54,579 nt of DNA, from positions 1-54,579 of IMG/VR virus record IMGVR_UViG_3300008262_005590, one strand, 5' to 3'. Of this stretch, positions 531 to 33,000 are shown piece after piece; the first letter of the stretch is position 1; the number at the start of each line of letters is the position of its first letter. Made by a program: the position numbers and the translations under genes. The notes beneath the pieces were generated by a model. The model worked only from the letters and a program-made list of their open reading frames with translations, was not told the origin of the DNA and searched no databases. The DNA is from a virus.

Positions 531-1415
531 ATGACACCACAGAAACGAGCCAAGTTTATAACAAAATGGATCAAGGATTACACCAAGCGACACAAGATTG
601 ACAAACTGGTGGTAGGTATCTCCGGTGGTATTGATTCAGCGGTGGTATCAACCTTGTGCGCCGAAACCGGAGTAGATACCATAGTGGTATCCATGCCCAT
701 ACATCAGCGCCCTGAACAACACTATCTGTCAGACAATCACGGCAAATGGCTGCAGGGCCGTTACAAAAACGTCACACACGTGACTGTGGATCTAACCAAG
801 ACCTTTGATGCTTTCAAAGATAACTTCAAAGTCCTGCCCAATCTATTGGCCTTGGCCAACAGCCGTAGCCGACTGCGCATGGCCTGTTTGTATCAGATAG
901 CGCAAAGCCACGCAGGTATCGTAGTAGGAACCGGCAACCGGGTGGAGGACTTTGGCGTAGGCTTCTATACCAAGTACGGCGACGGCGGTGTAGACATTTC
1001 GCCCATTGGCGATTGCATGAAAACCGAAGTGTGGGACATGGGCCGTGCGTTAGGAGTGGACGAAGACATTATCAATGCCGCACCCACTGACGGACTCTGG
1101 GACGATGGCCGCACAGATCAGGATCAACTCAAGGGCATTTCCTATCCTGAACTGGAACGTGCCATGATGCAGGACACCACAGGCACCAAACCTGAAGGCA
1201 AGCGCGAGCGTGAAGTGTTGAAACAGTATCGAGAGATCCGATCCAAGACACAGCACAAGATGCAGCCTATACCTGTGTGCATGATGCCTGCGGAAGAAAT
1301 CGTATACAAAAAACCCGCGAAAAAAGCAGCCAAGAAAACTGCCAAGAAAACAGCAAAATCTTATCGAAAATCAGAGAAAACAGCTGGTTTGCTCAACATT
1401 GTCCTGGTAAAATAA
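531..1415 (+). CDS. nadE: NH3-dependent NAD+ synthetase with a basic C-terminal tail
   Basis: The 294-aa protein opens with the ATP-pyrophosphatase P-loop SGGIDS (residues 31-36) in the context LVVGISGGIDSAVV. Other NadE features follow: a GTGNRVED segment, GDGGVDISPIGD, and a DGLW...D stretch typical of the deamido-NAD/AMP site. NadE makes NAD+ from nicotinate adenine dinucleotide, ATP and ammonia. No glutaminase domain is present. After about residue 258 the protein ends in a Lys/Ala/Thr-rich tail with KKPAKK-AAKK-TAKK repeats, resembling histone-H1-like tails and not part of standard NadE. The ribosome-binding site is GAGGAAA. A phage copy may keep NAD+ supplied during infection or offset NAD-depleting defences (inference). 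Confidence 0.92.
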   Translation: MTPQKRAKFITKWIKDYTKRHKIDKLVVGISGGIDSAVVSTLCAETGVDTIVVSMPIHQRPEQHYLSDNHGKWLQGRYKNVTHVTVDLTKTFDAFKDNFKVLPNLLALANSRSRLRMACLYQIAQSHAGIVVGTGNRVEDFGVGFYTKYGDGGVDISPIGDCMKTEVWDMGRALGVDEDIINAAPTDGLWDDGRTDQDQLKGISYPELERAMMQDTTGTKPEGKREREVLKQYREIRSKTQHKMQPIPVCMMPAEEIVYKKPAKKAAKKTAKKTAKSYRKSEKTAGLLNIVLVK

Positions 1416-1482: not shown

Positions 1483-2253
1483 ATGGCTACCAAAAATTAT
1501 GTTGTTTGCGCTCACCGTCGTATCAATAGCACCAAGTGGGTATGGAAAGACACTGCTGCCGAAGGCGACATCTATCAGACCTACCGCGAAATGTGCCGTC
1601 ACAGTCTGTCCAGTCTCAGACACTTTTTAAAAGGCAAATGGGAGTATATCCTGTTTGACGAAGAGATTGACAACATCAATGAAGCCATGCCGTTGAACAA
1701 TGATCGTATCTATGAACTATGGCATAAAGAACCTTGTAACATCTTGTGGGTAGGCCCAGATGTACAAGCCATTGACGATGTAGAGATCTTTGGAAAGTTC
1801 AAAGAATTCCGTTTGTTCAATTGGACTGACCCCAAGTCTTGGTCAGAACCAAATCAGTACAACAAGTCATTTGAGAACCTGTTCAACAACGATCTGCAGT
1901 ATTATCCCAGCACCATGGATCCCGAACTGTGGAAGATCGAGAGAAAAATGCGTGGTCAGTGGGATGACAGCGATGGAATGAGCAGCTACAATAATCAGCA
2001 GATCATACACAACACCATGTTTTGGAACCAAGGTTTGGAATGGGCAGATGCCCACCGTCCTTACTTATTCTATCAAGCACAATGGTTGCCCACTTGGCGT
2101 ACTCAGCAAGAACAGGATCAGTGGAATACCTGTGCCATGGAGGATGCTAAAATAGTTCATTGGCACAGCAGCCGTCACAGTCCTACCAAGTTGGCCTGTA
2201 TGCAGAAATTTACCAATCTCTTGGAAATTCCCCTGGTTGATGATCTCAAATGA
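1483..2253 (+). CDS. Unknown protein, possibly GT-A-like glycosyltransferase
   Basis: This 256-aa protein has no family I can name with certainty. The segment NILWVGPDVQAI (about residues 86-97) sits where a GT-A fold would place its metal/nucleotide-sugar site. An HWHSSRHS motif (about 226-233) follows near the C-terminus, a position where some GT-A enzymes carry a conserved His. The middle is rich in Trp, Asn and Asp. The start is set by CAGGAAA just upstream. It is the first gene of the sugar-nucleotide operon and overlaps the next gene by the ATGA at 2250-2253, so a role in transferring or handling the sugar is plausible but inferred from context. Confidence 0.45.
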   Translation: MATKNYVVCAHRRINSTKWVWKDTAAEGDIYQTYREMCRHSLSSLRHFLKGKWEYILFDEEIDNINEAMPLNNDRIYELWHKEPCNILWVGPDVQAIDDVEIFGKFKEFRLFNWTDPKSWSEPNQYNKSFENLFNNDLQYYPSTMDPELWKIERKMRGQWDDSDGMSSYNNQQIIHNTMFWNQGLEWADAHRPYLFYQAQWLPTWRTQQEQDQWNTCAMEDAKIVHWHSSRHSPTKLACMQKFTNLLEIPLVDDLK

Positions 2254-3263
2254 GAGTATGTGACTGGATAGCCCAATTCCTATACGATCGTGGAGTAACA
2301 TATGTACACGGTCTCATGGGAGGTGGTGCTGCCGGTCTCAACGATGGCTTTATCAAGAACGGCAAAATCAAATACATCTGCTATCATCACGAGCAAGGTG
2401 CCGGACACGCTGCCATTGGCGAAAGCAAGATCACTGGAAAAATATCTGTAGTGAATCCCACAACCGGTTGTGCCGGAACCAACTGTGCCACCAGTGTGCT
2501 GAATGCTTGGCAAGATTCTGTGCCTGTGCTATTTCTTTCGGGAAATGTGAGACTAGACACTTGCTCGGGTTGGATCAACGACACCAAAAACATCCATATC
2601 CGCAAGTACGGTATCCAAGAACATCATGTGGTAGATACCTATCAATCAATGACCAAGATGAGTCATTTTATTACCGATGCTAGAGATGTACCTATCACAC
2701 TAGAATATGCTTGGCACCTCATGACTGCCGACAGACCTGGTCCGGTTTGGATAGACATACCAGGTAATATACAAACCATGGCCATGCCCGATGATCCAAG
2801 ACACTACACAGGTCCTGTGCCAACTGAACCCTTGCAGTATGATTTTGATGCTGTTCGTGGAGCACTGGCTGTGGCAGAACGTCCCATAGTCTTGGCTGGC
2901 TATGGCGTAAGACAAAGCGGAACCGTTGATCAATTTTTACAATTTGTAGAAAAATATCAAATCCCTTATGTGGGAACCTACGGTGCCAGAGATTATGCCG
3001 AACACTCACACCCGTTGAACATTGGCACAGTGGGTCAGCGCGGCAGTCGGGCAGGAAACTTTGCTATGCAAAACGCAGATCTGTTACTGATCCTGGGGTC
3101 CAGTTTAAACGCCAGTGTTATAGGCTATGATCCTCGGCAGTTTAGTCCCGTGAGTTTTAAAATCGCAGTAGATATCGACGGCAATGAATTGGCCAAAGAC
3201 ATAGTCCACGTGGATGTAAATCTGCAGATGGATCTACGAGATTTCTTTCGAGGTATGCTATGA
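2250..3263 (+). CDS. ThDP-dependent enzyme, N-terminal half (Pyr and central domains)
   Basis: The 337-aa product matches the first two domains of acetolactate-synthase-like ThDP enzymes. The Pyr domain has the catalytic Glu in YHHEQGAGHAA (Glu about residue 48) and the NPTTGCAGTN loop. A central domain follows from about residue 190 (GALAVAERPIVLAGYG ... NADLLLILGSSLN). The PP domain, normally on the same chain, is encoded by the next gene, which starts in an ATGA overlap. The family includes acetolactate synthase and, in deoxysugar clusters, YerE, which attaches a two-carbon branch from pyruvate to a CDP-3,6-dideoxy-4-ketosugar. The sugar-gene neighbours make a YerE-like role reasonable. 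Confidence 0.8.
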   Translation: MRVCDWIAQFLYDRGVTYVHGLMGGGAAGLNDGFIKNGKIKYICYHHEQGAGHAAIGESKITGKISVVNPTTGCAGTNCATSVLNAWQDSVPVLFLSGNVRLDTCSGWINDTKNIHIRKYGIQEHHVVDTYQSMTKMSHFITDARDVPITLEYAWHLMTADRPGPVWIDIPGNIQTMAMPDDPRHYTGPVPTEPLQYDFDAVRGALAVAERPIVLAGYGVRQSGTVDQFLQFVEKYQIPYVGTYGARDYAEHSHPLNIGTVGQRGSRAGNFAMQNADLLLILGSSLNASVIGYDPRQFSPVSFKIAVDIDGNELAKDIVHVDVNLQMDLRDFFRGML

Positions 3264-3997
3264 CAAGACAGCAATGGATTGAGCGCTGCCAGCACTGGAA
3301 ACATAAATGGCCAGTCATGCAAGATCAATTTAGAGATGACAGCAATGGATTGAATCTTTATGCTGTGTTGGATGCTGTGAATCAGCACAGTTTGGCTGAT
3401 CAGGTTCTTATGGGCGATGCTGGCAGTATCAGTTACACAGGACCAGTGGCACTTAATCCCAAATCAGGACAGCGTATGGTGTTTAGTCCGGCGCAGGCTG
3501 ACATGGGCTGGGCATTGCCTGCTGCCATTGGAGTTGCCATTGCCAGCAACCAGCCAGTGATCAGCATCATTGGCGATGGCAGTTTCATGAGCAACATACA
3601 AGAGTTGGCTGTGGCCAGAGAGTATGAGTTAAACATCGCTTTTGTTATTTTGAATAACCGTGGATATCTCAGCATCAAGAACACGCAACAGAAATACTTC
3701 CAAGGTCGTGTGTATGGCACCAGTAGTGATACCGGTCTGTGGTTTCCTGACTTTGATCGCATCGCACAGGCCTTTGAACACAACTATTACCGCGCAGAAA
3801 CACAACAAGACCTTGACCATTTCAAGGCCTGGTTTGGTGTGCCAGGTCCTAAGATCATTGACTGCATCTGCACCACAGAACAAGAGATACAGCCCAGCCA
3901 GGCCTTAAAAGACGGCAAGCAAGCAGGTTTGCACGACATGGCTCCTTTCCTAAGCGATGAAGAATTAGCCCAGGAGATGATAGCGGAGATATCGTGA
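3260..3997 (+). CDS. ThDP-dependent enzyme, C-terminal half (PP domain)
   Basis: The 245-aa product carries the ThDP/Mg-binding motif starting GDGSFMSN (about residues 109-116) and ending in LNN about 25 residues later, as in GDG-X25-NN. It also has the QADMGWALPAAIG segment of the PP domain. With the preceding 337 residues it makes about 582 residues, the size of a normal one-chain enzyme. The two halves are therefore a split enzyme, translated through an ATGA overlap at 3260-3263 and presumably assembling as a heterodimer unit. The substrate is not proven; a sugar-branching acyl transfer is inferred from neighbours. Confidence 0.82.
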   Translation: MTRQQWIERCQHWKHKWPVMQDQFRDDSNGLNLYAVLDAVNQHSLADQVLMGDAGSISYTGPVALNPKSGQRMVFSPAQADMGWALPAAIGVAIASNQPVISIIGDGSFMSNIQELAVAREYELNIAFVILNNRGYLSIKNTQQKYFQGRVYGTSSDTGLWFPDFDRIAQAFEHNYYRAETQQDLDHFKAWFGVPGPKIIDCICTTEQEIQPSQALKDGKQAGLHDMAPFLSDEELAQEMIAEIS

Positions 3998-4791
3998 AAG
4001 TAGCAGTATTGGGAGCCAGCGGCTTTCTAGGCAGCTACATCTGTCTCAATCTACGCAATCACGTTGTCTACCCTGTATCTAGAAGCACCGTAACCTTGAC
4101 TGACTATACCAGCGTCAGTGATTGGATAGATCTTTATCAGCCCGATGTTGTAGTCAATTGTGCCACTGCTGGTGGCAAGACTCGCCTGGGCGATTGCAAC
4201 TATCAAGATCTACAAAACAATCTCGCTATCTTTTTAAACTTCTACAATCTCAGGCATAGATTCAGCAAGTTCATAAACATAGGTTCTGGGGCAGAGTTTG
4301 ACAAGTCCAAATCCATTGATCGCGCTCGGGAGTCTGAAATCTTGACAAGTGCTCCACAAGACAGTTATTCCTTGAGCAAAAATATCATTGCTAGAACCTG
4401 CCAGATGGTTGACAATTTTTACACCATACGACTGTTTGGTGTGTTTGACAGCACAGAGCCAGACTTTAGATTACTCAAAAGGTGCCTTCAACAGACAGAG
4501 ATCACGGTGCAGAACGCAGAGTTTGACATGATCTCAGCCAGTGATTTCCTGCGTGTGTTGCGCTACTACATTGAGAACGATAATTTACCGCAGGATATCA
4601 ACTGCGTGTATCAGCACAAACACGATCTAGAAAGTATTGTCAGGCATTTTGCCAGCATACATAATAATAAACTGCGCATAGAAGTGCAGATACCTGCGGA
4701 TCCAAAAAACTACACCGGCGATGGTACTGCATTGGCCGAGATGGGCATTGATCTAGCGGGCCTAGATCAAGGATTGGAACTGTATCAATGA
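3994..4791 (+). CDS. Extended SDR: NAD(P)-dependent sugar reductase or epimerase
   Basis: The 265-aa protein starts with GTG at 3994 inside a GTGA overlap with the previous stop. Residues 1-16 give a Rossmann strand and the GASGFLG dinucleotide motif. The catalytic set of the family is visible as GSGAEFD (Ser region) and YSLSK (YxxxK). Length and pattern fit RmlD-like or 4-ketoreductase members that reduce a keto-deoxysugar or the added branch. It overlaps the dehydratase gene by ATGA. It would act as the finishing reductase of the operon (inferred, comparable with YerF in yersiniose synthesis). Confidence 0.75.
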   Translation: MKVAVLGASGFLGSYICLNLRNHVVYPVSRSTVTLTDYTSVSDWIDLYQPDVVVNCATAGGKTRLGDCNYQDLQNNLAIFLNFYNLRHRFSKFINIGSGAEFDKSKSIDRARESEILTSAPQDSYSLSKNIIARTCQMVDNFYTIRLFGVFDSTEPDFRLLKRCLQQTEITVQNAEFDMISASDFLRVLRYYIENDNLPQDINCVYQHKHDLESIVRHFASIHNNKLRIEVQIPADPKNYTGDGTALAEMGIDLAGLDQGLELYQ

Positions 4792-5735
4792 GAAAAAGAG
4801 TTGTGTACGTCACAGGATGTTTGGGCTTCATTGGCTATCATGTCACACAGGCCTGCTTGAATCGTGGCTGGTATGTCTTGGGTGTGGACAAAGGTACTTA
4901 CTGTGCCAATTGGAATCTGTTGGCCAATCTTGAACGCCATCAAAATTTCAAATTCATTGCCAGTGACATCAACGATCTAGAGCGTTTGGTAGATTGCGAT
5001 TATGTTATCAACACTGCTGCAGAGACTCACGTGGACAACAGCATTGTATCTAGCAAAGTGTTTCTAGAGTCCAACATCAACGGTGTGCATCATCTGCTGG
5101 AACTGATCAGACAGAAAAGTCTGTTCACCATGCCTGTGATGCTGCATTTTAGCACAGATGAAGTGTACGGCGACATTGAAGTTGGCGCACATTCTGAGTC
5201 AGATCTGTTGAAACCCAGCAATCCTTATTCGGCCACCAAGGCAGCTGCTGATCACTTGGTCACAAGTTATGGCAGGACCTATGGTGTTCCTTACATCATT
5301 CTACGGCCTACCAACAATTATGGTATTGGACAGTATGTGGAAAAACTCATTCCCAAAAGTGTCAAGTATCTTTCATTGGGTCGTTGCATCGATATACATC
5401 AAAACGGCACTCCACGCCGTACCTGGTTGCACGTTTCGGACACTGCCAATGCTGTGTTGACCGTAATTGATGCCGGAGTCAAAAATGAAATATACAATAT
5501 TTCTGGTAACCACGAGTGTGCCAACATCGAAGTTATCCACAAGATAGTGACCCAAATCAAAGGCACCAGCAACAACATAGAACAATACCTCGAGCACATG
5601 ACCAGACCCGGTCAGGATGTTCGTTATGCCATAGATGACACCAAACTGCAGACTCTGGGTTGGCGTGCCACTGCACTATTTGACAACGAGTTAACAAATA
5701 TAGTAAAATATTATCAAGATAACTTTGTTTGGTAA
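4788..5735 (+). CDS. Nucleotide-sugar 4,6-dehydratase (RmlB/RfbG-like)
   Basis: The 315-aa product has the NAD-binding motif GCLGFIG (residues 10-16), the catalytic triad FSTDEVYG (Thr123, Asp124, Glu125) and YSATK (Tyr147, Lys151). The Asp-Glu pair marks 4,6-dehydratases and is absent from simple epimerases. The reaction turns NDP-glucose into NDP-4-keto-6-deoxyglucose, the entry to deoxysugar pathways. The pattern AAETHVDNSI is also typical. The nucleotide (dTDP or CDP) cannot be decided; the RfbH homologue nearby argues for CDP. A single base separates its stop from the next ATG. Confidence 0.88.
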   Translation: MRKRVVYVTGCLGFIGYHVTQACLNRGWYVLGVDKGTYCANWNLLANLERHQNFKFIASDINDLERLVDCDYVINTAAETHVDNSIVSSKVFLESNINGVHHLLELIRQKSLFTMPVMLHFSTDEVYGDIEVGAHSESDLLKPSNPYSATKAAADHLVTSYGRTYGVPYIILRPTNNYGIGQYVEKLIPKSVKYLSLGRCIDIHQNGTPRRTWLHVSDTANAVLTVIDAGVKNEIYNISGNHECANIEVIHKIVTQIKGTSNNIEQYLEHMTRPGQDVRYAIDDTKLQTLGWRATALFDNELTNIVKYYQDNFVW

Positions 5736-5736
5736 A

Positions 5737-6903
5737 ATGAAAGAAATAACACAGGCCGCACTGCGCATCGACGGACAACCTATGTTTAGGGTGTTGGATC
5801 GCGCACGTCGCTTAGAAGCCCAAGGCCAAGACATCATACATTTGGAGATAGGCGATCCAGACTTTGGTACACCTACCAATGTCACTGACGCGGCCATAGA
5901 AAGTCTACGTGCTGGGCACACTCACTATACCAGCAGTTATGGACTGCCAGAGTTCAGAGAAGCCATTCGTTTTGCCACACAACGCAGTCGAGGCTTTGAA
6001 CCTGACTTGTCGCAGGTGTTGGTCACGCCCGGTGCCAACACACAGATATATTATGCTGTCATGTGCTTGGTTGAACCCGGCATGGAAGTGATCGTGCCCG
6101 ATCCAGGATTCAGTACCTACTACAGTGTGATAAAGATGTTGGGTGCCAAGGCAGTGCCAGTGAGATTGAAAGAAGAAAATCAGTTTCGCATGGATCCCAA
6201 AGATATTGAAGCAGCCATAACCGATCGTACTAGATTGATCATTATCAACACACCGCACAATCCCACTGGATCGGTCATGACACAACAAGAAGTTCGCGCA
6301 GTCTATGACATAGCGGTCGGCAACGATGTGTATCTCTACAGCGATGAGATCTATGCACGTATGAGTTATGGTGATGTGTTTTACAGTCCCAGTGTATATG
6401 ATCAGTGCCGCGAACACGTGATACTCAGCAACGGATTTAGCAAAAGTTTTGCCATGACCGGCTGGCGGCTAGGCACACTGGTTGGCCCAGAAGTAGTAGT
6501 AGAACGCATGGCGGCACTGTTACAAACTGTGGCCAGTTGCGTACAACCATTTATCCAACGTGCTGGTATTCGTGCCATCAACGGAGACCAAAGTGAAGTT
6601 GCTGCCATGATGCAGGAGTATCGTGCTCGCAGAGATCTACTGGTTGCGGGCTTGAACAGCATACCGGGATTTGATTGTCTCACACCCGATGGCGCATTTT
6701 ATGTATTCCCTAATATTCGAGCCACTGGCATGACCAGTGATGCATTGGCAGAGTATCTGTTGGAGGATGCGGGAGTAGCACTATTGCCTGGCACTTGTTT
6801 TGGTGCCAACAGCGAAGGTTATCTAAGACTGTGTTATGCCAACAGCAAAGCCAACATACGAGAAGCACTGCAACGTATCAAAACATCCATGAGGAAATTA
6901 TGA
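5737..6903 (+). CDS. PLP-dependent aminotransferase, class I (aspartate-aminotransferase-like)
   Basis: The start is ATG 5737, one base after the upstream stop; a TTG at 5725 is rejected because it overlaps the upstream gene. The 388-aa protein has HNPTGS (substrate and PLP phosphate region) and the Schiff-base lysine in SNGFSKSFAMTGWRLG. The tail FGANSEGYLRLCYANS carries the family arginine. It would transfer amino groups between an amino acid and a keto acid. Its place in a sugar operon is odd, because sugar aminotransferases are usually DegT-type; it may supply an amino-acid precursor or pyruvate. It overlaps the next gene by ATGA. Confidence 0.85.
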   Translation: MKEITQAALRIDGQPMFRVLDRARRLEAQGQDIIHLEIGDPDFGTPTNVTDAAIESLRAGHTHYTSSYGLPEFREAIRFATQRSRGFEPDLSQVLVTPGANTQIYYAVMCLVEPGMEVIVPDPGFSTYYSVIKMLGAKAVPVRLKEENQFRMDPKDIEAAITDRTRLIIINTPHNPTGSVMTQQEVRAVYDIAVGNDVYLYSDEIYARMSYGDVFYSPSVYDQCREHVILSNGFSKSFAMTGWRLGTLVGPEVVVERMAALLQTVASCVQPFIQRAGIRAINGDQSEVAAMMQEYRARRDLLVAGLNSIPGFDCLTPDGAFYVFPNIRATGMTSDALAEYLLEDAGVALLPGTCFGANSEGYLRLCYANSKANIREALQRIKTSMRKL

Positions 6904-8219
6904 AAGAAATACTAGATCAAGTCAAACACTACATCGACCAAAAACAAGCAGCCAAAACCTGGGTGGCAGGTCGGGACTTTGTGAACTATGCCGGGGCATA
7001 CTACGACAGCCAAGAGTTTGTGGCCGGAGTTGAATCACTGCTGTCTGGTTGGTTGGCCATGGGCGGCAAGGGCCTAGAATTTGAACGAGCCTTTCCGCAA
7101 TACTTTGGCAAGAATCTTGGCATCGTGACCAACTCGGGTTCTTCCAGCAATCTCTTGATGATGTCATCGTTGACCAGCAAGCGTGGCCATCACTTGCCAC
7201 GTGGAACCAAGGTATTGATTCCCATAGCAGGATTTCCAACCACGCTCAATCCCACGCTACAGGTGGGATTTGAACCTGTGTTTGTTGACATCGAATTAGA
7301 TACACTGAATTTGGATCTAGCACAGGTTGAGCAGACTTTAGAAAAAAATCCCGACATCCGTGTGATCACATTTGCCCACGTGCTGGGCAATCCACCAGAC
7401 ATGGATAGACTCATGCAGATAGTCAAGCATCACAATCTCATACTGTTAGAAGACTGCTGTGACGCATTGGGCTCTACCTATGATGATCAACCCCTGGGAT
7501 CTTATGGACTCATGGCCTCCTGTAGTTTTTATCCAGCACATCATATGACCATGGGCGAAGGTGGCTTTGTGGCCACGTCAGATGTGAATCAAGATGTGAT
7601 CCTGCGCAGTTTACGCGAATGGGGTCGCGGTTGTTACTGTGTTGGTCCCGAGGCCAACAAACTCAAATGTGGCACTTGCGGCAAACGATTCTCAGAGTGG
7701 GTACCTTGCATGGCCGGAGAGATCTTTGATCACAAGTATGTTTACGATGAAATCGGTTACAATCTCAAGCCCATTGAATTACAATGTGCCATGGGACTGC
7801 AACAGTTGAACAAACTGCCAGAGATACATCAACTGCGTCGTCGCAATTATCAACTGCTGTTTGATATCTATCAACCCTACGAAGAGTTCTTCCACTTGCC
7901 ACGTGCTCGTGCCAAAAGCAATCCCAGCTGGTTTGCATTTCCCATAACCATTCGCAAAGATGCGCCTTTCAAACGCACCGACATCGTAGACTACTTGGAA
8001 GATAACCTGATCCAGACTCGGCCTTACTTTGCAGGCAATGTCATGCTGCAACCTGCTTATAGCCACTTGATGGATCCTGTTAGGGCCAGGGACGACTTTC
8101 CCAATGCCACACAGGCCATGACCAACACCTACTTCCACGGCACGTCACCTGTGATCACTCCCGAGCAGATTGCCTACATTGGTGAAAAGGTCCAAGGATT
8201 CCTTAGTTTATACGCCTAA
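6900..8219 (+). CDS. rfbH: RfbH/E1-type CDP-4-keto-6-deoxyglucose 3-dehydratase
   Basis: Start ATG 6900 follows GAGGAAATT and gives 439 aa, the family length. An upstream in-frame start inside the aminotransferase gene is rejected. The protein is a DegT-fold PMP enzyme, but at the PLP-lysine position it reads YPAHHMTMGEGG (residues 211-222). The histidine replacing lysine is the mark of the E1/RfbH dehydratases rather than aminotransferases. Cysteines at about 245, 247, 257, 260 and 270 fit the [2Fe-2S] ligands of E1. The enzyme removes the C3 hydroxyl during 3,6-dideoxyhexose synthesis with an E3 reductase, which is not seen in this window. Confidence 0.92.
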   Translation: MKEILDQVKHYIDQKQAAKTWVAGRDFVNYAGAYYDSQEFVAGVESLLSGWLAMGGKGLEFERAFPQYFGKNLGIVTNSGSSSNLLMMSSLTSKRGHHLPRGTKVLIPIAGFPTTLNPTLQVGFEPVFVDIELDTLNLDLAQVEQTLEKNPDIRVITFAHVLGNPPDMDRLMQIVKHHNLILLEDCCDALGSTYDDQPLGSYGLMASCSFYPAHHMTMGEGGFVATSDVNQDVILRSLREWGRGCYCVGPEANKLKCGTCGKRFSEWVPCMAGEIFDHKYVYDEIGYNLKPIELQCAMGLQQLNKLPEIHQLRRRNYQLLFDIYQPYEEFFHLPRARAKSNPSWFAFPITIRKDAPFKRTDIVDYLEDNLIQTRPYFAGNVMLQPAYSHLMDPVRARDDFPNATQAMTNTYFHGTSPVITPEQIAYIGEKVQGFLSLYA

Positions 8220-9176: not shown

Positions 9177-10268
9177 ATGTCCGAAGCCCGTACCGTAACC
9201 AGTAAGCAAGCCCGCAAGAGTATCCTGCGGTGCTTTAAATCCAAGCGCCCACTGTTCTTGTGGGGTCCTCCAGGCATTGGCAAGTCTGAACTGGTGGAGA
9301 ACATTGCCACTGAGATGAATGGCTATATGATTGACCTGCGCCTGGCGCAGATGGAGCCCACCGACTTGCGTGGCATTCCGTTTTACAACAAAGACTTGAA
9401 CAAGATGGACTGGGCCGCGCCCGTGGACCTGCCCGACGAAGAATTGGCCAGCCAGTATCCCATCGTTATCTTGTTCTTGGACGAGATGAACTCGGCCGCT
9501 CCGTCGGTACAGGCCGCGGCATATCAGTTGACACTTAACCGTCGCATTGGCAAGTATCGACTGCCCGACAATGTGGTAATCGTGGCCGCTGGTAACCGTG
9601 ACTCAGACAAGGGCGTGACTTATCGTATGCCCACGCCCTTGGCCAATCGCTTTATCCACCAGGAAATGAAAGTGGATTTCAACTCCTGGCAAGAGTGGGC
9701 TGTGCTGAATCGCATCCACAAAGACGTGGTAGGTTACCTGAGTTTTGCCAAGGGCGACTTGTACGACTTTGATGCTAAATCGGCATCACGCTCGTTTGCT
9801 ACACCGCGTTCCTGGACCTTTGTGAGCCAATTGCTGGACGACGAAGAAGATGATGACACGCTGATGAATCTCATCGCTGGTACTGTGGGCGAGGGCTTGG
9901 CTGTGAAGTTTATGGCTCACCGCAAAGTATCTGCCAAGATGCCCCAGCCTGAAGACATCCTAGACGGCAAAGTCAAGGATCTGCAGGTGAAGGAAGTGTC
10001 GGCAATGTACAGTTTGGTTACCAGTCTCTGCTATGAACTCAAAGAGGGCCTTGGCCGTGCCAAAGACTCCAAGAGCAAAGAAGAGTGGAACAAAAAGGTC
10101 GATAACTTCTTGGGCTATATGATGGCGAACTTTGAAACAGAGCTCACTGTCATGGGTGCTCGTGTGGCATTGACTGTGTACGAACTGCCCTTTGAAACTA
10201 CCAAACTCAAGAACTTTGACGAGTTCTACAAGAAGTTTGGCAAATACATCCTCCAGGCAGCCAACTAA
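9177..10268 (+). CDS. MoxR-family AAA+ ATPase
   Basis: The 363-aa protein has Walker A GPPGIGKS (residues 30-37), Walker B VILFLDE (about 97-103) and a sensor-1 segment VVAAGNRDSDKG (about 135-146), followed by PTPLANRF. These are typical of MoxR ATPases, chaperone-like enzymes that work with a VWA-domain partner on metal insertion or complex remodelling. Here the partner appears to be the metallopeptidase/VWA gene at 10702-11938. MoxR/VWA pairs are known in large T4-like phages, where their function is unclear. Confidence 0.9.
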   Translation: MSEARTVTSKQARKSILRCFKSKRPLFLWGPPGIGKSELVENIATEMNGYMIDLRLAQMEPTDLRGIPFYNKDLNKMDWAAPVDLPDEELASQYPIVILFLDEMNSAAPSVQAAAYQLTLNRRIGKYRLPDNVVIVAAGNRDSDKGVTYRMPTPLANRFIHQEMKVDFNSWQEWAVLNRIHKDVVGYLSFAKGDLYDFDAKSASRSFATPRSWTFVSQLLDDEEDDDTLMNLIAGTVGEGLAVKFMAHRKVSAKMPQPEDILDGKVKDLQVKEVSAMYSLVTSLCYELKEGLGRAKDSKSKEEWNKKVDNFLGYMMANFETELTVMGARVALTVYELPFETTKLKNFDEFYKKFGKYILQAAN

Positions 10269-10701: not shown

Positions 10702-11391
10702 ATGTCCACAGCAACTACAGAAAATAAAAAACAAAAGTTCGCTAATCTCTTGGGTCCTACAGATAGGGCCTTGGATGTCAAGATCCGTGAAAAACTCATT
10801 ACCGGCCGCGTGGGCCTGTTGATCAAGCAACCTTTCTTTGGTAACCTGGCTACTCGTCTCAAACTGACCAATGCCGACGAATGGTGTAGCACTGCCGCTA
10901 CCGACGGCAGGAATTTTTACTACAACAGCCGTTTCATCGATATGCTCAAGCCCAAGGAAGTAGAGTTCTTGTTTGGCCACGAAGTGCTCCATTGCTGTTA
11001 TGATCACTTTGGGCGACGTGGCGAGCGTGATGCTCAACTGTTCAACATCGCCAATGACTATGCTGTCAATGCTGACTTGAAGAAACACCGCGTGGGCGAG
11101 ATGATTACCACGGTACCTGCCTTGTACGACTCCAAGTTTGAAGGTTGGTCATCGGAGCAGATCTATGACTATCTGTACGAGAATGCTGAAAAGATCAGTC
11201 TAAATGATTTGCTGGACAAACTCATCGACGAACACTTGGACGGCGACGATGACGATGGCGAAAGTGAAGGCAACAGCGACGGCAAAGGCAACAAAGGCCG
11301 TCCACGGCTCAGCCATGATAAATGCGGCCAATCAGGCCGGCGCTGGCAACATTCCCGCAGGCGTGGCTCGTATGATCAAGGACATCACTGA
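10702..11391 (+). CDS. Metallopeptidase-VWA protein, N-terminal part (frame disrupted)
   Basis: The first 185 or so residues match the N-terminal putative zinc metallopeptidase domain (DUF2201-type) with HEVLH (HExxH) in FGHEVLHCCYDHFGRR, about residue 94. An acidic linker follows (DGDDDDGESEGNSDG). After about nucleotide 11295 the frame yields a meaningless Arg-rich end and stops at 11391. The expected continuation (NAANQAGAGNIPAG and the VWA domain) is read one base later. A +1 shift near 11280-11315 would restore one protein of about 411 aa. It may be a true frameshift mutation, recoding, or a sequence error. Confidence 0.7.
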   Translation: MSTATTENKKQKFANLLGPTDRALDVKIREKLITGRVGLLIKQPFFGNLATRLKLTNADEWCSTAATDGRNFYYNSRFIDMLKPKEVEFLFGHEVLHCCYDHFGRRGERDAQLFNIANDYAVNADLKKHRVGEMITTVPALYDSKFEGWSSEQIYDYLYENAEKISLNDLLDKLIDEHLDGDDDDGESEGNSDGKGNKGRPRLSHDKCGQSGRRWQHSRRRGSYDQGHH

Positions 11392-11938
11392 GCCCAAGAT
11401 GAACTGGCGCGAACTGCTTCGTATGCAATTACAGAGCACTATCAAGACCGACTTTACCTGGATGCGTCCCAGCCGGCGTGGTTGGGATATGGACGCTGTG
11501 ATGCCAGGTATGCGCAACGAAGACGCCATTGATATTGCTGTGTTCATTGATGCGTCAGGATCCATTGGCGACAAGATGCTCAAAGACTTCTTGGGCGAGA
11601 TCCAAGGCATCATGGAATCCTTTGAAAGTTATAAAATCCACGTGGTCACTTTTGATACTCACTGCTACAATCCTGTTACCTATAATTCCGATAATTTGGA
11701 TGACATTTGTGACTATGATGTCAAGGGTGGTGGTGGCACAGACTTTACCTGTATCTTTGATTATCTCAAGGACTCGGCTGTGGAGCCCAAGAAACTGGTG
11801 GTGTTCACAGACGGATTGCCTTTTGGTTCCTGGGGTGATCCCAACTACTGCGACACAGTTTGGATCATTCATAGCAATCCCGGATGCCAAGCGCCCTTTG
11901 GTCTCTCTGCAGAGTATGACAAACAGGATAAACATTAA
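11315..11938 (+). CDS. Metallopeptidase-VWA protein, C-terminal VWA part (frame disrupted)
   Basis: From ATG 11315 this frame gives 207 aa beginning MINAANQAGAGNIPAGV, the conserved continuation of the upstream metallopeptidase domain. The VWA-like domain shows the MIDAS pattern DASGSIG, then GGGTDFT and FTDG. No ribosome-binding site precedes 11315, so the start is uncertain and the part is probably made by fusion with the upstream frame or by coupling. It pairs functionally with the MoxR ATPase upstream. Confidence 0.68.
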   Translation: MINAANQAGAGNIPAGVARMIKDITEPKMNWRELLRMQLQSTIKTDFTWMRPSRRGWDMDAVMPGMRNEDAIDIAVFIDASGSIGDKMLKDFLGEIQGIMESFESYKIHVVTFDTHCYNPVTYNSDNLDDICDYDVKGGGGTDFTCIFDYLKDSAVEPKKLVVFTDGLPFGSWGDPNYCDTVWIIHSNPGCQAPFGLSAEYDKQDKH

Positions 11939-14950: not shown

Positions 14951-15387
14951 AGCATGAATTCTCTTTCAAAATAGTTTCTTATGTCGGGTATCATTCCTTG
15001 ATCCATGTTATTGGGCAAGGCCGCAATGATCTTGATGTAGGTTTCTTTGTCTTGACTGTAGGGAACAAAGTAAGGATCATTGCCGTACAGCAGATCAGGA
15101 TCATCTAGCACAGTTAAAAAATCTTCACCAAATTCTTGATTCAACCATCGAGCATATAAGACAGCAACTGCATAACTTTTACCAGGATATAACCATCCAA
15201 CTTCCTGCTCAGTAAAATACTTCACAGCAGTTGACACAACATCAGTGACTATTTCAATGTCAAACTGATTTAGATCGTCACCGTGTTCTTTGGTAAGTCT
15301 GTGATATACTTCCTGTCTTACTTTCCACTCTTTCATGATATCAAGTGTACTGGCGAGCATACCACTGTATGAGATGTTTGTATCCAT
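14947..15387 (-). CDS. Hypothetical protein, 146 aa
   Basis: The 146-aa acidic product is helical at the start (MLASTLDIMKEWKVRQEVYHRL). The middle has WLYPGKSYAVAVLYARWLNQ, and the end DQGMIPDIRNYFEREFML. No motif or family is recognised. The gene overlaps the radical-SAM gene before it by 47 bases and the oxygenase after it by 4, so it belongs to the same operon and may be an accessory or substrate-binding protein. Confidence 0.68.
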   Translation of the reverse strand: MDTNISYSGMLASTLDIMKEWKVRQEVYHRLTKEHGDDLNQFDIEIVTDVVSTAVKYFTEQEVGWLYPGKSYAVAVLYARWLNQEFGEDFLTVLDDPDLLYGNDPYFVPYSQDKETYIKIIAALPNNMDQGMIPDIRNYFEREFML

Positions 15388-16258
15388 TGCAACTCATGGA
15401 TATATCTCGCACTTCACGCAAGTGTTCGCTTAGACAGCGTCCGTGGAATTCGCAATCACGGCAGTATTCGTTCACACTAACACGTTGTTTTTCTCGTTCA
15501 CACCATTGTTGATATTCTTCAATGGAATCCATTTCTAAGAAATACTCGCGATCATTGATGTCAAATTCCAACACAGCAAATCTACCGCTGGGAGTAATAT
15601 ACACGTGATCATCACTGTAACTGTGTCCTTGCCCGTCTAATACCTGTTGTATAAGGGCGGCGTTGACAAACTGGAATTTTTTTGGCGTGGCAGCGGTGAG
15701 CCAGCGTATCACATAGTTTTCAAAATCTTTGTCGGTTATCTGGAGATCATTGGCCTGATTGCGACTATAGGGTTTGATTTCTACTGAACGTAGATTAGGT
15801 ATGAGATTGAACATATTGATCATGTAGTTGGGATCCAGTGTGATCAAGTGCGGACTGGCCAGCATGAGCACGCTGAAATCCGAAGAAATCATGGTCATGT
15901 TCTTGTAAACCAAATCATATTTTTCTCTGGCGCTGAAGTCGTAACTGACACTGAGAGAATAGTTAGGATCTTCGGTGATTTGGTTTACTGCGCTAAGGTT
16001 TGTTATCATGTTGAGATTTTTGCAGTATCGTTTCAAAATCACAGTCATGTCTTCAAAGTACTGTTTAGGCAGCAGGGCCACTTCGCCGCCGTAGACATCA
16101 ATCTGATCAATGATGCCATAATGTGCTACAACTTCTTGTAATCTAGACTCCAATTTATCAAGTTTGATTAATTTTTGACTAGACAACTGTCCTTCTGTTA
16201 GATAACAAAATTTGCAACGGAAGTTACAATAATACCAAGGATTAAGGGATATGTTCAT
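15341..16258 (-). CDS. Radical SAM protein with reduced SPASM-like end (A)
   Basis: I set the start at ATG 16258 (305 aa); a TTG 66 bases upstream lacks support. The [4Fe-4S]-SAM motif is CNFRCKFC (Cys11, 15, 18). A glycine-rich YGGE segment follows near residue 78. The C-terminus has CRDCEFHGRC plus a later SCNGYKHL. The first SPASM cysteine pair (C-x9-15-G-x4-C) is missing, so probably only one auxiliary cluster remains. Such enzymes commonly modify peptides. It is one of five radical SAM genes here and shares the YKHLI element near its end with protein D. Confidence 0.85.
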   Translation of the reverse strand: MNISLNPWYYCNFRCKFCYLTEGQLSSQKLIKLDKLESRLQEVVAHYGIIDQIDVYGGEVALLPKQYFEDMTVILKRYCKNLNMITNLSAVNQITEDPNYSLSVSYDFSAREKYDLVYKNMTMISSDFSVLMLASPHLITLDPNYMINMFNLIPNLRSVEIKPYSRNQANDLQITDKDFENYVIRWLTAATPKKFQFVNAALIQQVLDGQGHSYSDDHVYITPSGRFAVLEFDINDREYFLEMDSIEEYQQWCEREKQRVSVNEYCRDCEFHGRCLSEHLREVRDISMSCNGYKHLIQWYARQYT

Positions 16259-16264
16259 AGGTAA

Positions 16265-16272
16265 GATATTTA
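16265..16272 (-). promoter_or_regulatory. TAAATATC element before radical SAM gene A
   Basis: On the minus strand TAAATATC lies six bases before ATG 16258, with no Shine-Dalgarno site between. It resembles the T4 late box. If it is a promoter the transcript would be nearly leaderless. Confidence 0.35.
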
Positions 16273-16382
16273 GCGACCGCTCGAGGCAGATCAAAGGTAT
16301 TTGGGCAGCATAAGCCACTACCAATGATCACTGATATACTAATCAATATATGTAAGGATCTTGTTTCCTGCTCTGTCTGATC

Positions 16383-17250: not shown

Positions 17251-18324
17251 CTACGCTGTCTCATATTCTTTTACATATTCTGTTGGTTCCAAGTCCACAC
17301 CATTGGCTTCAATGATGTCGGCAGCAAGAGTTTTCATTTTACTACAATGGCGTTCGACCAAATTGTACCGTTTGAGATCGGTTATGGTTTTGCGACAACC
17401 ATTGCAGATATCAAACATAGGGCAACTATAACAACTCTGCTTGAGAGTCTGAAGATCGGGTTGATCTTTCAGTATCCTGATTATTTTTTTGCTATTCATC
17501 TCTTGCTCAAAATCTATAGCATATTCTTTGTCGTCGCCAAAGGCTCCGCAACTGTAGTAATCTCCGGATGGCTGTAGAGTCCTAATACCTGCATCACAAT
17601 CTCTGTTTTGTGGACATATGGTTGCTTCACCGCGCAGTCGTTTCATCATGGTCTTGGTACTGTGTTCCCAAGGATATAATTCTTGTCGCCAGATTTCGAG
17701 ATATATCTCGTAGATATCTGCCAGTACAAAAGGACGACCTTGCTGGCCCATGATGATGTTACGAAACTTCACAGGAGGTCCCGAACTAAAGGCATAGTTT
17801 AACTTGCACTCCACGTTCATCTTCTTGGCCAGTCTCACATTGTCGAGAGCACGATCTGCATTTTCTTCGGTTATTACTGTGATAAAGTCTGGCCTATATC
17901 CACAATAGCGTAGCATGGCGTCGCTGCATTTCCAAAAGTCTTCTTCTGAAAATGGGGTAAGATCACCTTTGAGACGTCCTCCACCATATTGGAAGCTGGT
18001 GGTTATGCCCATACGCTCATGATTGAATAGATCTACCCACTTTTGGGGATTCTTGTAAAATGGCCAAAGATTAGTGGTAAAACTAATAGAGGTATCATAC
18101 TCATGTAAGTCCAACCAGTCAATGATCTTCCAGTAGTATGCTGGCGACATCATGAGTGGATCGCCACCGTTGACTATGATTGTTTTGGTGTCAGGAAAAC
18201 GTTCAAGAAATCTAAAAATTTGATCGTGCCCAAGTTCAGCACTTTTGTCGTCGGTGATGTTGGTACTGGAGCAAAACGTACATTTGAAATTGCAACGCTC
18301 AGTTGGTTTGATAATTAGATCCAT
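17251..18324 (-). CDS. Radical SAM/SPASM enzyme (B)
   Basis: The 357-aa protein has CNFKCTFC (Cys11, 15, 18) and a complete SPASM domain. The first half is C-x10-G-x4-C (CDAGIRTLQPSGDYYSC). The second is CYSCPMFDICNGC with a last Cys in ERHC, giving ligands for two auxiliary [4Fe-4S] clusters. IVNGGDP supplies the SAM-binding glycines. SPASM enzymes include sactipeptide and ranthipeptide synthases, sulfatase-maturing enzymes and other peptide modifiers. The ribosome-binding site is TGAGG. It follows a 26-codon remnant ORF. Confidence 0.9.
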   Translation of the reverse strand: MDLIIKPTERCNFKCTFCSSTNITDDKSAELGHDQIFRFLERFPDTKTIIVNGGDPLMMSPAYYWKIIDWLDLHEYDTSISFTTNLWPFYKNPQKWVDLFNHERMGITTSFQYGGGRLKGDLTPFSEEDFWKCSDAMLRYCGYRPDFITVITEENADRALDNVRLAKKMNVECKLNYAFSSGPPVKFRNIIMGQQGRPFVLADIYEIYLEIWRQELYPWEHSTKTMMKRLRGEATICPQNRDCDAGIRTLQPSGDYYSCGAFGDDKEYAIDFEQEMNSKKIIRILKDQPDLQTLKQSCYSCPMFDICNGCRKTITDLKRYNLVERHCSKMKTLAADIIEANGVDLEPTEYVKEYETA

Positions 18325-25360: not shown

Positions 25361-26428
25361 TTAAACTGGGACTATTTTAAACATTTTGGCGGGAATTTTG
25401 TAGGAATCTTGGGCTGTACCATACTTTAGTTCTCGCATGAGGCTCTTGGGCGCACCGCAAACGTCGCCTTGCCAGCTCAATTGATGACAATCTGATCCGC
25501 ATTTGTCAAATACATCACAGTCATAACACAGGGTATTCCTGTGCGATTCGCAGGCTATGTTGTTTATGCGCTGCGGGTGGGTCAGGACATCTTGTATGCC
25601 CATGGAAATATGTCCAAAATTTTCTTCGGGCGCAGCATTGGGACAGCCACCTATTGTTCCATCCGCATTGATGGTAAAAAGTTTTTGTTCGCAATCTCTG
25701 CAGAAAGTTCCTGCTCCAGTAATGTTACGTTCGAACTTGCTGTAGATATTTTCCATGAACTCATTGGCAAACCACGATCTTGCATCGTATTGCTGTATCT
25801 GACGGTGCATTTTTAAAAACCATTGATCCTGATCTAGATTTCGGGGGAAAATATCTGGATGCTGTCTAGCATTGCCGTTGTTGGTCAAGCGTTCTAGATC
25901 CATTTCTTGAACACCTAAATCTCGCACCCAGCGCAGCAGTTCAATGGGTTCTATATTGATAGTATCCCGTGTGACGCTGATAAACAGTTTTATGGACACT
26001 CCTAGGCTCAGCAACCTTTCAACGTTTCTGCGCCACAATGATTCTTGTCTAACATTGGCAAATCTAATAGCCGGATCCCAACTGGTGCCTATGCGTCGAC
26101 CCAATGGACCCAAGATGAAATCTTCAATGTCTTGATTTAGTTTAAAGGTTAGATTACTGGTGCAGCCAAATGAAGCAACATCAAAAGTATCACGCAATTG
26201 ATCATATACACGGATCATATCTTGCACTGGGGCCAGAAATGGTTCGCCACCGTGGAATTCATAGTGCATGGTGTGCCCTGCGCCCACGTGCTGGTGGAAA
26301 CGCTGGAAAAAATCAATCACGTGATCTGGATTCCAGAATATCTTACGCCCTTGGGTACCAGATGTAAAACAATGCCGGCAATTTAAATTACAGGTTTCAG
26401 TGGTCTTGAGATAACTTAGATAATTCAT
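25361..26428 (-). CDS. Radical SAM/SPASM enzyme (E) beside the precursor genes
   Basis: Start ATG 26428 lies in an ATGA overlap with the upstream cupin gene; a TTG two codons earlier is rejected. The 355-aa protein has CNLNCRHC (Cys13, 17, 20), FHGGEP, and a full SPASM domain. The SPASM domain shows C-x10-G-x4-C (CEQKLFTINADGTIGGC), then C-x2-C-x5-C-x3-C (CYDCDVFDKCGSDC) and GDVC. The layout is that of peptide-modifying enzymes such as the sulfatase-maturase and sactisynthase group. Its place next to the two tail-sharing genes makes it the first candidate to act on their cysteines. Confidence 0.92.
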   Translation of the reverse strand: MNYLSYLKTTETCNLNCRHCFTSGTQGRKIFWNPDHVIDFFQRFHQHVGAGHTMHYEFHGGEPFLAPVQDMIRVYDQLRDTFDVASFGCTSNLTFKLNQDIEDFILGPLGRRIGTSWDPAIRFANVRQESLWRRNVERLLSLGVSIKLFISVTRDTINIEPIELLRWVRDLGVQEMDLERLTNNGNARQHPDIFPRNLDQDQWFLKMHRQIQQYDARSWFANEFMENIYSKFERNITGAGTFCRDCEQKLFTINADGTIGGCPNAAPEENFGHISMGIQDVLTHPQRINNIACESHRNTLCYDCDVFDKCGSDCHQLSWQGDVCGAPKSLMRELKYGTAQDSYKIPAKMFKIVPV

Positions 26429-26898
26429 TGACAATCTATCAAGTAAGATTCTAAGCCAAAACTCAGCATGAGACTGTCTTCCTGGTTGACAGCTTCATGT
26501 GGTACATTGGCTGGAATCAACAGTGTATCACCTGCTGTGAGTGTGCGCCATTCTCCGTCCACAATCATATTTTTGGTGCCTTCAATCACTTCTAAAAATA
26601 CTGGCATGGGATCTGAGTGTGAGCCAAAACTCTGCGAACCCGGAAAGGCTCTGTAAGCGTGACAAGTCACTGGCCCAACATGATCATACATGATTTTCAA
26701 ACCAGCACATTTTATAGCCAACTCGCGAGAGTAGCGTTCTAGGCCTTCGAGTTTGATGGCATGACCATTGTAAAGTTTTGATAATTCAGCGTGATTGTGA
26801 ACAAGATAGTGTCCACCATTTTTTATCACGCTGATCAAATTATGCCTATAAACAAACTCTCGGCCAATAAAGGCTTTGAATTCGTTTATGCTATTCAT
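26425..26898 (-). CDS. Cupin/JmjC-like Fe(II) oxygenase
   Basis: The 157-aa protein has a beta-barrel core with SHSDPMPVF (His94, Asp96), an EVIEGTKNMIVDGEW strand, then TAGDTLLIPANVPHEAVN (distal His134). The H-x-D...H set fits JmjC-like protein hydroxylases or simple cupins. It is translationally coupled to SPASM enzyme E by ATGA and begins two bases after the stop of the 801-aa fibre gene. A hydroxylase acting on the fibre or the tail peptides is inferred. Confidence 0.7.
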   Translation of the reverse strand: MNSINEFKAFIGREFVYRHNLISVIKNGGHYLVHNHAELSKLYNGHAIKLEGLERYSRELAIKCAGLKIMYDHVGPVTCHAYRAFPGSQSFGSHSDPMPVFLEVIEGTKNMIVDGEWRTLTAGDTLLIPANVPHEAVNQEDSLMLSFGLESYLIDCQ

Positions 26899-30099: not shown

Positions 30100-33000
30100 T
30101 TATACGTCACCTTGCAGGAATCGACCTGCAACTGTGGGTTGATGCTGCAGTCTTATACCATCTCCTGTGGCATTGTACCAATTTTTGCTAGAGTCAATAC
30201 CAACTACCACTGTTACCCCATTGGCTGGTGCTTCTGCCAGTGTAACTACAGCAGGCATCACACCCACTGAATAATAATCTGCGGCGATAGTGATTATAGC
30301 GTTGGCTGCGGGCGTTTGAGCAAATGCTACCTGAACTGGGTCGGTATCTATCACAGCATATGTGTCACTGATATGCACCCAAGAATTACCATTGGGTGGG
30401 GGATCTATCACTACATTGGGATGACTATTGCTCAACGAAATGCCGGTGGGTATTACCACTTGATTGTTGATCACCACTATAACATTGGCCACGTTGCTGA
30501 CAGAAACATTATTGGCTATAAACACGTTGGTATAGTTATCGCCAAAGAATACATTGGCATTGGGTGTGGGCAGCAGTGCTCCGTTGATTGCTACCATGAC
30601 TTGATCATAACGGTCAACTGCGATATTACCTATGTCGCTGCCAGAAACGTTGGAATCTGTGGCAGTAAATGTATTGACCACGCCGTCGGCTGTAATACTG
30701 GCCATACGCATGGCGATCTCTGTTCCTGCCACGGCCAATCTAACTTCTTGTTGGATATCAGCCATTATGGTAGCAGTGGCAAAAGTACGGGTGTTGCCAT
30801 CTCCTGTGAACTGCTCAGCCGTTATGCGATCTCTATAGGCTATGGGAATGATGTTGGGTGTGGCAGCATCTACTACCGTACTGCCCACTTCGTGATCCTG
30901 TGCGGCAGTTCCACCGATGCCACGTATCAATCCCGATATGGTATTATTGCTATAGTCGATGTATCTGTAGGCCAAACGCTCCGATCCTACAAATGCTACT
31001 CCAATCTGATTCAGTGACAGTTGTGGCAATGATAACTTAGATGCGTCTTCTAGATAAATGATGTCATCGGTGAATTGTACCCTTACCGTAGTCTCTGTGA
31101 CATTGAGTTCTGTCATACGGTACACAGCGGTGTTGTCATTCATGTCTTTCCAGACTTTGAAATCCAATTCATCGGGCACTGAATTCTGGCTGGAATCAAG
31201 AATTTGCACTACATCTGTGTCGGGCAGGCCGTTGGCCACGATACGCACAGCAGAGCCTTCGGCGACATAATCTTCGTTAAAGAATAATCTGTTGCCATTG
31301 AGCGTGGTCCATGGTCTGTAGCCGTTGGTCACGGGATCCTGCACAGGATAGACATTTTCGATCTGTGTGGGAGTAAATGTCACTGTTATATTAGATCTAG
31401 AAGAATACTGTGTGGTATCGATATAGACCTGACGTTGAGCATAATCTGTGCCTGTGACCAGTGTGTTGGTGCGTAGATAATTACCAGTTACCAGCATACC
31501 TGGTACGATTCTTGTAAAGTCAGGAACAAAGGACAAGGGATAGTACTCTGCTGTAAAGGTTGTGGCGATATAACTTTGCGTACCTATCTGCTGACTTCCT
31601 GCTGACTCGCCTACGCTGACAAACTGACTGGTGGTCTGATCATAGGCCACGCTGGTAATATTAGCGCTGGTCAAGGGTTGCATTTCTGTCCACGTAGAAG
31701 CGTTGTCGTAACCATTCCAAACCGTACCATTCTGTCCCACCAAGACAAATTTATTAGCACCATAAGCGACGGAATTCCAATTGATCATATCAGTGACAAT
31801 GGTTACATTGCTGTTGACGCTGACATTACTGGTCATCAGTATGGTGACATTGGGATTGATAGCAGTCACGGCATAGTCTACTCCGCGTGTCAAAGCATTG
31901 CCGTTTAATAATACTGAAATTTCCTGTGTATCTGTGGCCAGCAGTGTAGAAGTTGTGGTTGTGAATGTGCGATTGTTGGCGTTAGACTGAATAAAAGATT
32001 CTGATCCTGATTCTGAGATCAATACAAAACTGTTGCCAAATGAATCAACACTGACTACAAGTGCGCCATTTTCCCCGCCTATCACTGTCTTGACTGTGCT
32101 GCCTGTGACAGCTACATTTACACAACGTAAATTTGAAGATGTGGGTACTAACATCCTTGACCATACCTGACCATCTGCAGATTTGTAGGCCTGCCCTGAA
32201 TCGCCCACAGCGATAAATGCCATGGGACCCGAATTAGCACCTGTGTAAGTTATGTCTCTAAAGGTCGCAGTGCTACCTATGTCATACACCGTCCAAGTGT
32301 TGGCATCGGTACTGACCAAACTCTTGCCGTTGCTGCCTACTGCTACAAACTTTCCTAGTCCAAAGGTCACTGATTCGATATTTTCATCGGTGGTGGCATC
32401 TACACGCACAAAGTCGCTGCTGCTGCCAATACTGCGATATATGGTGCCGTTGTCTCCAACTAGCACGTAGGTATCTCTGGAACTTTGGTATCCATATTCG
32501 CTGTCATTCAAGGGCCATTCTTGATTATAGGCCTGCCAAGTGGCTACATTTGATGTACGTAGGATAGTACTACGGCTACCAACAGCACACCAATCTCCTA
32601 CAGTATTGCCGCTGGCTATCACACCCCAGATATCCTGTGTAGTGCCATCGCTGGTTGCAGCCTGCTGCCAAGATCCATTGGCTCCCGATGTGCTGTAAGC
32701 AATCACACCACCTGCAGCCACGTAAGCATAATTACCACTGGCATAAGCGCCCTGAGCGATATTGGCAGTAGTTCCGCTAGTTATCTGTTGCCAGCCCTGT
32801 GCCACGTCGTTGCTGAGGTAAAGATTGCCGCCTAAGCCGCCGGCTAAAAATACATTGGCGTTGCCGATGCTGCTGCCAAACACTGTGTTCAACGTTACCG
32901 CCGCATTGGGTGCAACATTGCCTTCAAACCATGTGATATTATCATCACTGTAAATGGTAGTGCTTTGGTCGCCTACTGCCAACCAATAGTTGCCTATATA

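Follow-up and report, generated by a model that had tools for sequence, protein, structure and literature searches.

Bacterial polysaccharides are known to contain branched 3,6-dideoxysugars. The yersiniose A pathway of Yersinia pseudotuberculosis O:VI employs a 4,6-dehydratase, the 3-dehydratase RfbH, the thiamine diphosphate (ThDP)-dependent carboligase YerE and a reductase, and its branching step joins cytidine diphosphate (CDP)-3,6-dideoxy-4-keto-glucose with pyruvate. JanthE of Janthinobacterium sp. HH01 (PDB: 8rph) is a YerE-like enzyme that transfers 2-oxo-acid fragments onto ketones (PMC12188165, PMC12247030). ErwE of the erwiniose pathway prefers 4-hydroxy-2-oxo acids over pyruvate, a precedent for a non-pyruvate donor, and a 2025 review lists viruses among the places where unexplored orthologs might turn up (PMC12247030). 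Here we describe an operon of seven co-directional genes at positions 1483-8219 of a virus record (IMG/VR IMGVR_UViG_3300008262_005590; the whole stretch of 54,579 nucleotides is called the window) that probably directs the synthesis and attachment of a C-branched 3,6-dideoxyhexose. The open-access literature on phage deoxysugars, RfbH, YerE and ThDP, with subscription papers outside the scope, yielded no account of a phage operon of this kind or of a virus-encoded sugar-branching step.

The operon shares the four enzyme types of the yersiniose A pathway but differs in splitting its ThDP enzyme between two genes, in using an RmlB-type dehydratase and in adding an aminotransferase. The two ThDP halves together have the domain order and the C-terminal tail of JanthE, whereas JanthE is one chain, carries CDG where the phage pair has GDG, and is distant in the tree (end branch of 1.2-1.4 changes per column). 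The likeness to the erwiniose pathway, drawn at the level of the reaction, would lie in a YerE-like carboligase that branches a 4-keto-3,6-dideoxy sugar by means of a 2-oxo-acid donor other than pyruvate. Glycan islands of the cyanophages S-H68 and RN05-S, which infect Synechococcus (L154, L155), likewise place RfbH among glycosyltransferases, together with a 4,6-dehydratase and a small cytidylyltransferase; their annotations show no ThDP enzyme in the vicinity of RfbH.

The two-gene ThDP enzyme and its linkage to RfbH

Both halves of the ThDP enzyme find JanthE as their best PDB match, the N half with 166 bits (next match 142) and the C half with 109 bits (next 57.5). The catalytic Glu48, the GDG and the NN motif are kept in all 71 aligned split homologs. 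A C-terminal tail, LxDxxPxL, is common to the split enzymes, JanthE and the bacterial relatives and does not occur in IlvI, IlvB, Gcl or PoxB of Escherichia coli. In a careful tree the YerE-like set stands apart from IlvB, IlvI and Gcl of E. coli (support 100/100), and a quick tree with more rows agrees (its basal order of long-branched phage forms was left unused). The careful tree unites the split enzymes in a single clade (100/99), whose sister group consists of fused phage enzymes. Both lie in a wider clade with 100/100 support that also takes in other phage enzymes and the bacterial aminotransferase-linked ones. The trees were built without authentic YpYerE and ErwE, leaving JanthE as the characterised YerE-like reference, and the bacterial sample was picked by likeness to the phage enzymes; this limits the test, but the separation from acetolactate synthase is unaffected. 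The first-pass annotation had named a grouping with amino-acid or carboxylate enzymes as the result that would speak against a sugar pathway, and the PDB matches and trees place the enzyme instead with YerE-like sugar-branching enzymes. They support the view that the pair is a YerE-like carboligase that would add a 2-oxo-acid fragment to a keto sugar.

The single-polypeptide form of such carboligases is not found here; the two genes overlap by 4 nucleotides. Since the enzyme is fused in sister phages, the two-gene form counts as a variant. A frameshift or pseudogene was ruled out as the origin of the split by the 4-nucleotide overlap in 67 loci and by the one well-supported clade.

RfbH scores above the NF011936 cut-off of 423 bits; we take the ATG at 6900 as its start in preference to the TTG at 6795. 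Among solved structures its best match is the E1 enzyme of CDP-ascarylose synthesis (PDB: 3bcx, 327 bits). His214, which replaces the lysine that binds pyridoxal phosphate (PLP), and the four Fe-S cysteines (Cys187, Cys245, Cys247 and Cys260) are kept in 142 of 142 phage copies, which bears out the earlier identification of an E1-type enzyme by its histidine.

Operons of this kind recur widely across viral contigs (452 RfbH and 72 ThDP loci). Counted over viral loci that are partly overlapping and related, and hence not independent, RfbH occurs, at a median distance of 2.5 kb, in 69 of the 72 loci fetched by the ThDP N half alone, and the ThDP enzyme occurs in 66 of the 80 fetched by RfbH alone. 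The three ThDP loci without RfbH have their match at the locus edge. The association is not one of chance, in keeping with the single coupled operon seen at first pass. A genome scan with an alignment made up solely of phage ThDP enzymes recovered 80 bacterial genes with 35-41% identity, whose loci carry genes of the RfbH family in 46 cases, of the RfbG cluster in 41 and of the RfbF cluster in 37. Most of the nearest bacterial relatives lie inside polysaccharide clusters with RfbF, RfbG or RfbH.

Some phage RfbH operons carry an E1alpha/E1beta-like pair (~207 and ~180 amino acids) in the ThDP position. These pairs (L109:1695-2857, L120, L133 and others) apparently form a minimal enzyme of the alpha-keto-acid dehydrogenase type, a superfamily that supplies another type of ThDP enzyme branching deoxysugars (PMC12247030).

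Partner enzymes and donor supply

Profile searches place all the enzymes listed by the first-pass annotation (4,6-dehydratase, 3-dehydratase, split ThDP enzyme and sugar reductase) in the operon, and add two genes that it had not named, an aminotransferase and an orphan. The 4,6-dehydratase had been called RmlB/RfbG-like, and only the first half of that name stands. TIGR01181 is the best-scoring of the models it matches, below the cut-off of 365 bits, and its best PDB matches are dTDP-glucose 4,6-dehydratases. The CDP-glucose 4,6-dehydratase model TIGR02622 gives 68 bits against a cut-off of 278. In bacteria, by comparison, true RfbG (469 bits) and true RfbF (375 bits) are encoded near the ThDP relatives. 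The phage dehydratase therefore differs from the bacterial one.

The orphan at the head of the operon has no match in Pfam, NCBIfam, PHROG or known phages. Its AlphaFold2 model (mean predicted local distance difference test score, pLDDT, 89.8) matches glycogenin best in Foldseek (E 2.9e-6), with a VIA Z of 14.2 over 198 of 256 residues. Further fold matches (Z 13-14) are UGGT, WbbM and the PBCV-1 capsid glycosyltransferase. On this predicted structure we assign it as a GT-A fold glycosyltransferase resembling GT8, GT24 and GT6, which makes transfer of the finished sugar to an acceptor likely. Homologs occur in 77 loci. Phages and bacteria alike have relatives of the short-chain dehydrogenase/reductase (SDR) in the neighbourhood of YerE-like genes.

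The aminotransferase accompanies 37 of 71 split ThDP enzymes and none of 44 fused loci, with at least seven changes of state along the split-enzyme tree. Four bacterial genomes, of Sulfurospirillum (L157), two Patescibacteria (L162, L175) and an alphaproteobacterium (L177), have, adjoining a YerE-like gene, an aminotransferase that shares 55-60% identity with its phage counterpart; all other aminotransferase matches in these and eight further genomes show 23-38% identity. The ThDP enzymes of these clusters fall in the same supported clade as the phage enzymes (L175 is not in the tree) but are encoded by a fused gene and accompanied by CDP chemistry of RfbG/RfbF type.

Beyond the aminotransferase, varying enzymes lie near the ThDP gene in phages and bacteria, and most act on 2-oxo acids. 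They include an HpcH/HpaI-type aldolase with an SDR and an AroB-like protein (bacterial counterparts up to 57, 40 and 43% identical, respectively), a PanB-like protein, NeuB-like proteins in phages (bacterial counterparts 60% identical) and, in bacteria, a protein resembling 4-hydroxy-2-oxovalerate aldolase. NeuB-like synthases beside or near the YerE-like gene are seen in a phage locus (L077:6886-7989) and in three bacterial ones (L182, L205, L223), hinting at very long 2-oxo-acid donors. We infer that these varying enzymes supply the 2-oxo acid for decarboxylation by the ThDP enzyme, the least proven step of the pathway. If donor enzymes are exchanged in this way, the branch need not be the two-carbon one of yersiniose.

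A proposed pathway and its alternatives

Sequence shows the enzyme families, the catalytic residues, the phylogeny and the gene linkage, and the pathway deduced from them would run as follows. The RmlB-type enzyme would convert host nucleoside diphosphate (NDP)-glucose into NDP-4-keto-6-deoxyglucose. RfbH would then take off the 3-hydroxyl with electrons probably drawn from host reductases. The aminotransferase would make a 2-oxo acid from an amino acid, and the two-subunit ThDP enzyme would decarboxylate it and join the acyl fragment to the C-4 ketone, which would become a tertiary alcohol. The SDR could reduce the new branch ketone, or alternatively a ring keto group. The GT-A enzyme would move the sugar to its acceptor; a glycan of the host surface or of the virion is the likeliest, with DNA, also proposed at first pass, as a further candidate.

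Several observations weigh against this pathway. The aminotransferase is missing from about half of the split loci and is therefore not essential. The 4,6-dehydratase is not of the CDP-specific type found in bacterial YerE-like clusters. Unlike the yersiniose A pathway, the window, possibly a fragment, shows no NTP_transferase-family nucleotidylyltransferase and no E3 reductase. Across 20 records (the window and 19 related ones), weak matches to that family occur in two and E3 domains (Fer2, NAD_binding_1) in none, and these absences are not proven since all 20 are or may be fragments. NDP-glucose and electrons would then come from the host. PF01467 proteins, candidate cytidylyl- or nicotinamide mononucleotide (NMN)-adenylyltransferases, are present in 10 of 12 records, larger relatives, and none is in the window.

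One alternative is a true yersiniose route, with pyruvate as donor, a two-carbon branch and an aminotransferase that serves another purpose. YerE and JanthE do accept pyruvate (PMC12247030), and the split loci without an aminotransferase fit such a route. Pyruvate requires no supply enzyme, yet enzymes of 2-oxo acids recurrently adjoin the ThDP gene in phages and bacteria, and ErwE takes 4-hydroxy-2-oxo acids rather than pyruvate (PMC12247030). We regard this route as rather unlikely, though deserving serious attention. The yersiniose logic proposed at first pass survives in the YerE-like ThDP enzyme and the genuine RfbH, and gives way in the RmlB-type dehydratase, in the added aminotransferase and in the donor, which is probably not simply pyruvate because an aminotransferase or other 2-oxo-acid enzyme so often adjoins the ThDP gene. 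Two separate products, namely a plain 3,6-dideoxy sugar from RmlB and RfbH and an unrelated metabolite from the ThDP/aminotransferase pair, would suit the 14 of 80 RfbH loci that have no ThDP gene. Against this speak the rarity of the reverse case, confined to three of 72 viral loci in which the match lies at a locus edge, and the use of precisely the RfbH product by characterised YerE-like enzymes (PMC12247030). The same ThDP-RfbH linkage recurs in the bacterial relatives, and we consider separate products improbable.

In another alternative, RfbH acts as a C-4 aminotransferase and yields an amino sugar. SpnQ, an RfbH-related enzyme, transaminates in the absence of its reductase, and the 20 phage records gave no E3. 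The histidine in place of the PLP lysine and the four Fe-S cysteines in every phage copy argue against it, as does the location of the bacterial counterparts in 3,6-dideoxy clusters; we judge it very improbable. The ThDP pair could also be read as an acetolactate synthase that boosts the branched-chain amino acid metabolism of the host. This is what its best NCBIfam matches and the names of its closest annotated relatives say, and a survey of viral genes carries such an assignment (PMC8226683). Every NCBIfam score for acetolactate synthase, however, lies far under the cut-off, the tree places the enzyme outside IlvB, IlvI and Gcl (100/100), and the identified recurrent neighbours include RfbH but neither IlvC nor IlvD. 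The scores and the tree position led us to reject this identity, to which we give hardly any weight.

A broader and more tentative reading of the proposed pathway is that aquatic phages may hold a constant core (RmlB-type dehydratase, RfbH, ThDP carboligase and glycosyltransferase) to which exchangeable donor enzymes are added, so that each phage would make a different branched sugar. The donor modules would be the aminotransferase; the HpcH/HpaI-type aldolase with SDR and AroB-like protein; the PanB-like protein; and the NeuB-like protein. One clade would possess a heteromeric carboligase, and its viral 'acetolactate synthase' genes would be misnamed genes of sugar-branching enzymes. K01652 is listed together with rfbG in viral contigs (PMC8226683), and viral surveys may report the ThDP genes of this operon as acetolactate synthase. 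The analysis is also relevant to the interpretation of viral 'ilvB' genes in aquatic surveys. Given how often such operons turn up in aquatic viral contigs, phages may use them routinely to alter surfaces. The enzyme adjoining the ThDP gene gives a testable prediction of branch structure, and a natural YerE-like enzyme of two subunits could be of use in biocatalysis.

Operon layout and the rest of the window

Neighbouring genes of the operon overlap by 4 nucleotides at 2250, 3260, 3994, 4788 and 6900, and the aminotransferase ATG (5737) follows the preceding stop codon after 1 nucleotide (Table 1). The carrier is a freshwater-type phage; the far end of the record encodes a baseplate wedge protein (phrog_10646, E 4.6e-274) and a tail-fibre-like gene.

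Table 1. Genes of the branched-sugar operon and its upstream neighbour, in window coordinates (PMP, pyridoxamine phosphate).
Predicted product	Position	Strand	Basis
NAD synthetase NadE, upstream neighbour of the operon	531..1415	+	PF02540
GT-A fold glycosyltransferase (GT8/GT24/GT6-like)	1483..2253	+	predicted structure; profile-library orphan
ThDP enzyme, N (pyrimidine-binding) and middle domains, YerE-like	2250..3263	+	PF02776, PF00205
ThDP enzyme, C (diphosphate-binding) domain, YerE-like	3260..3997	+	PF02775
RmlD-like/extended SDR	3994..4791	+	PF01370, PF04321
NDP-glucose 4,6-dehydratase, RmlB type	4788..5735	+	TIGR01181, 292.6 bits
Class I/II PLP aminotransferase	5737..6903	+	PF00155, 252.6 bits
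RfbH/E1-type NDP-4-keto-6-deoxyglucose 3-dehydratase (PMP, [2Fe-2S])	6900..8219	+	NF011936, 440 bits

NadE often accompanies the operon, with homologs in 46 loci, and adjoins it in many relatives. Related loci cluster NadE with a phosphoribosyltransferase, and together with the PF01467 nucleotidyltransferases of the larger relatives these proteins possibly form a phage route of NAD supply.

Downstream of a MoxR-like ATPase (9177-10268), two overlapping frames on the plus strand (10702-11391 and 11204-11938) resemble two pieces of one protein, an N part and a VWA part, which could reflect a frameshift, a sequencing error or a natural split. The minus strand carries one open frame of 6033 amino acids (30100-48201) that adjoins the baseplate wedge gene (48204-51680) and contains no direct repeats of 40 bases or longer. 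Three radical-SAM-like proteins are also encoded on the minus strand among genes of unknown function, two with PHROG matches (15341-16324 and 17251-18324) and one with a weak Pfam match (25361-26434).

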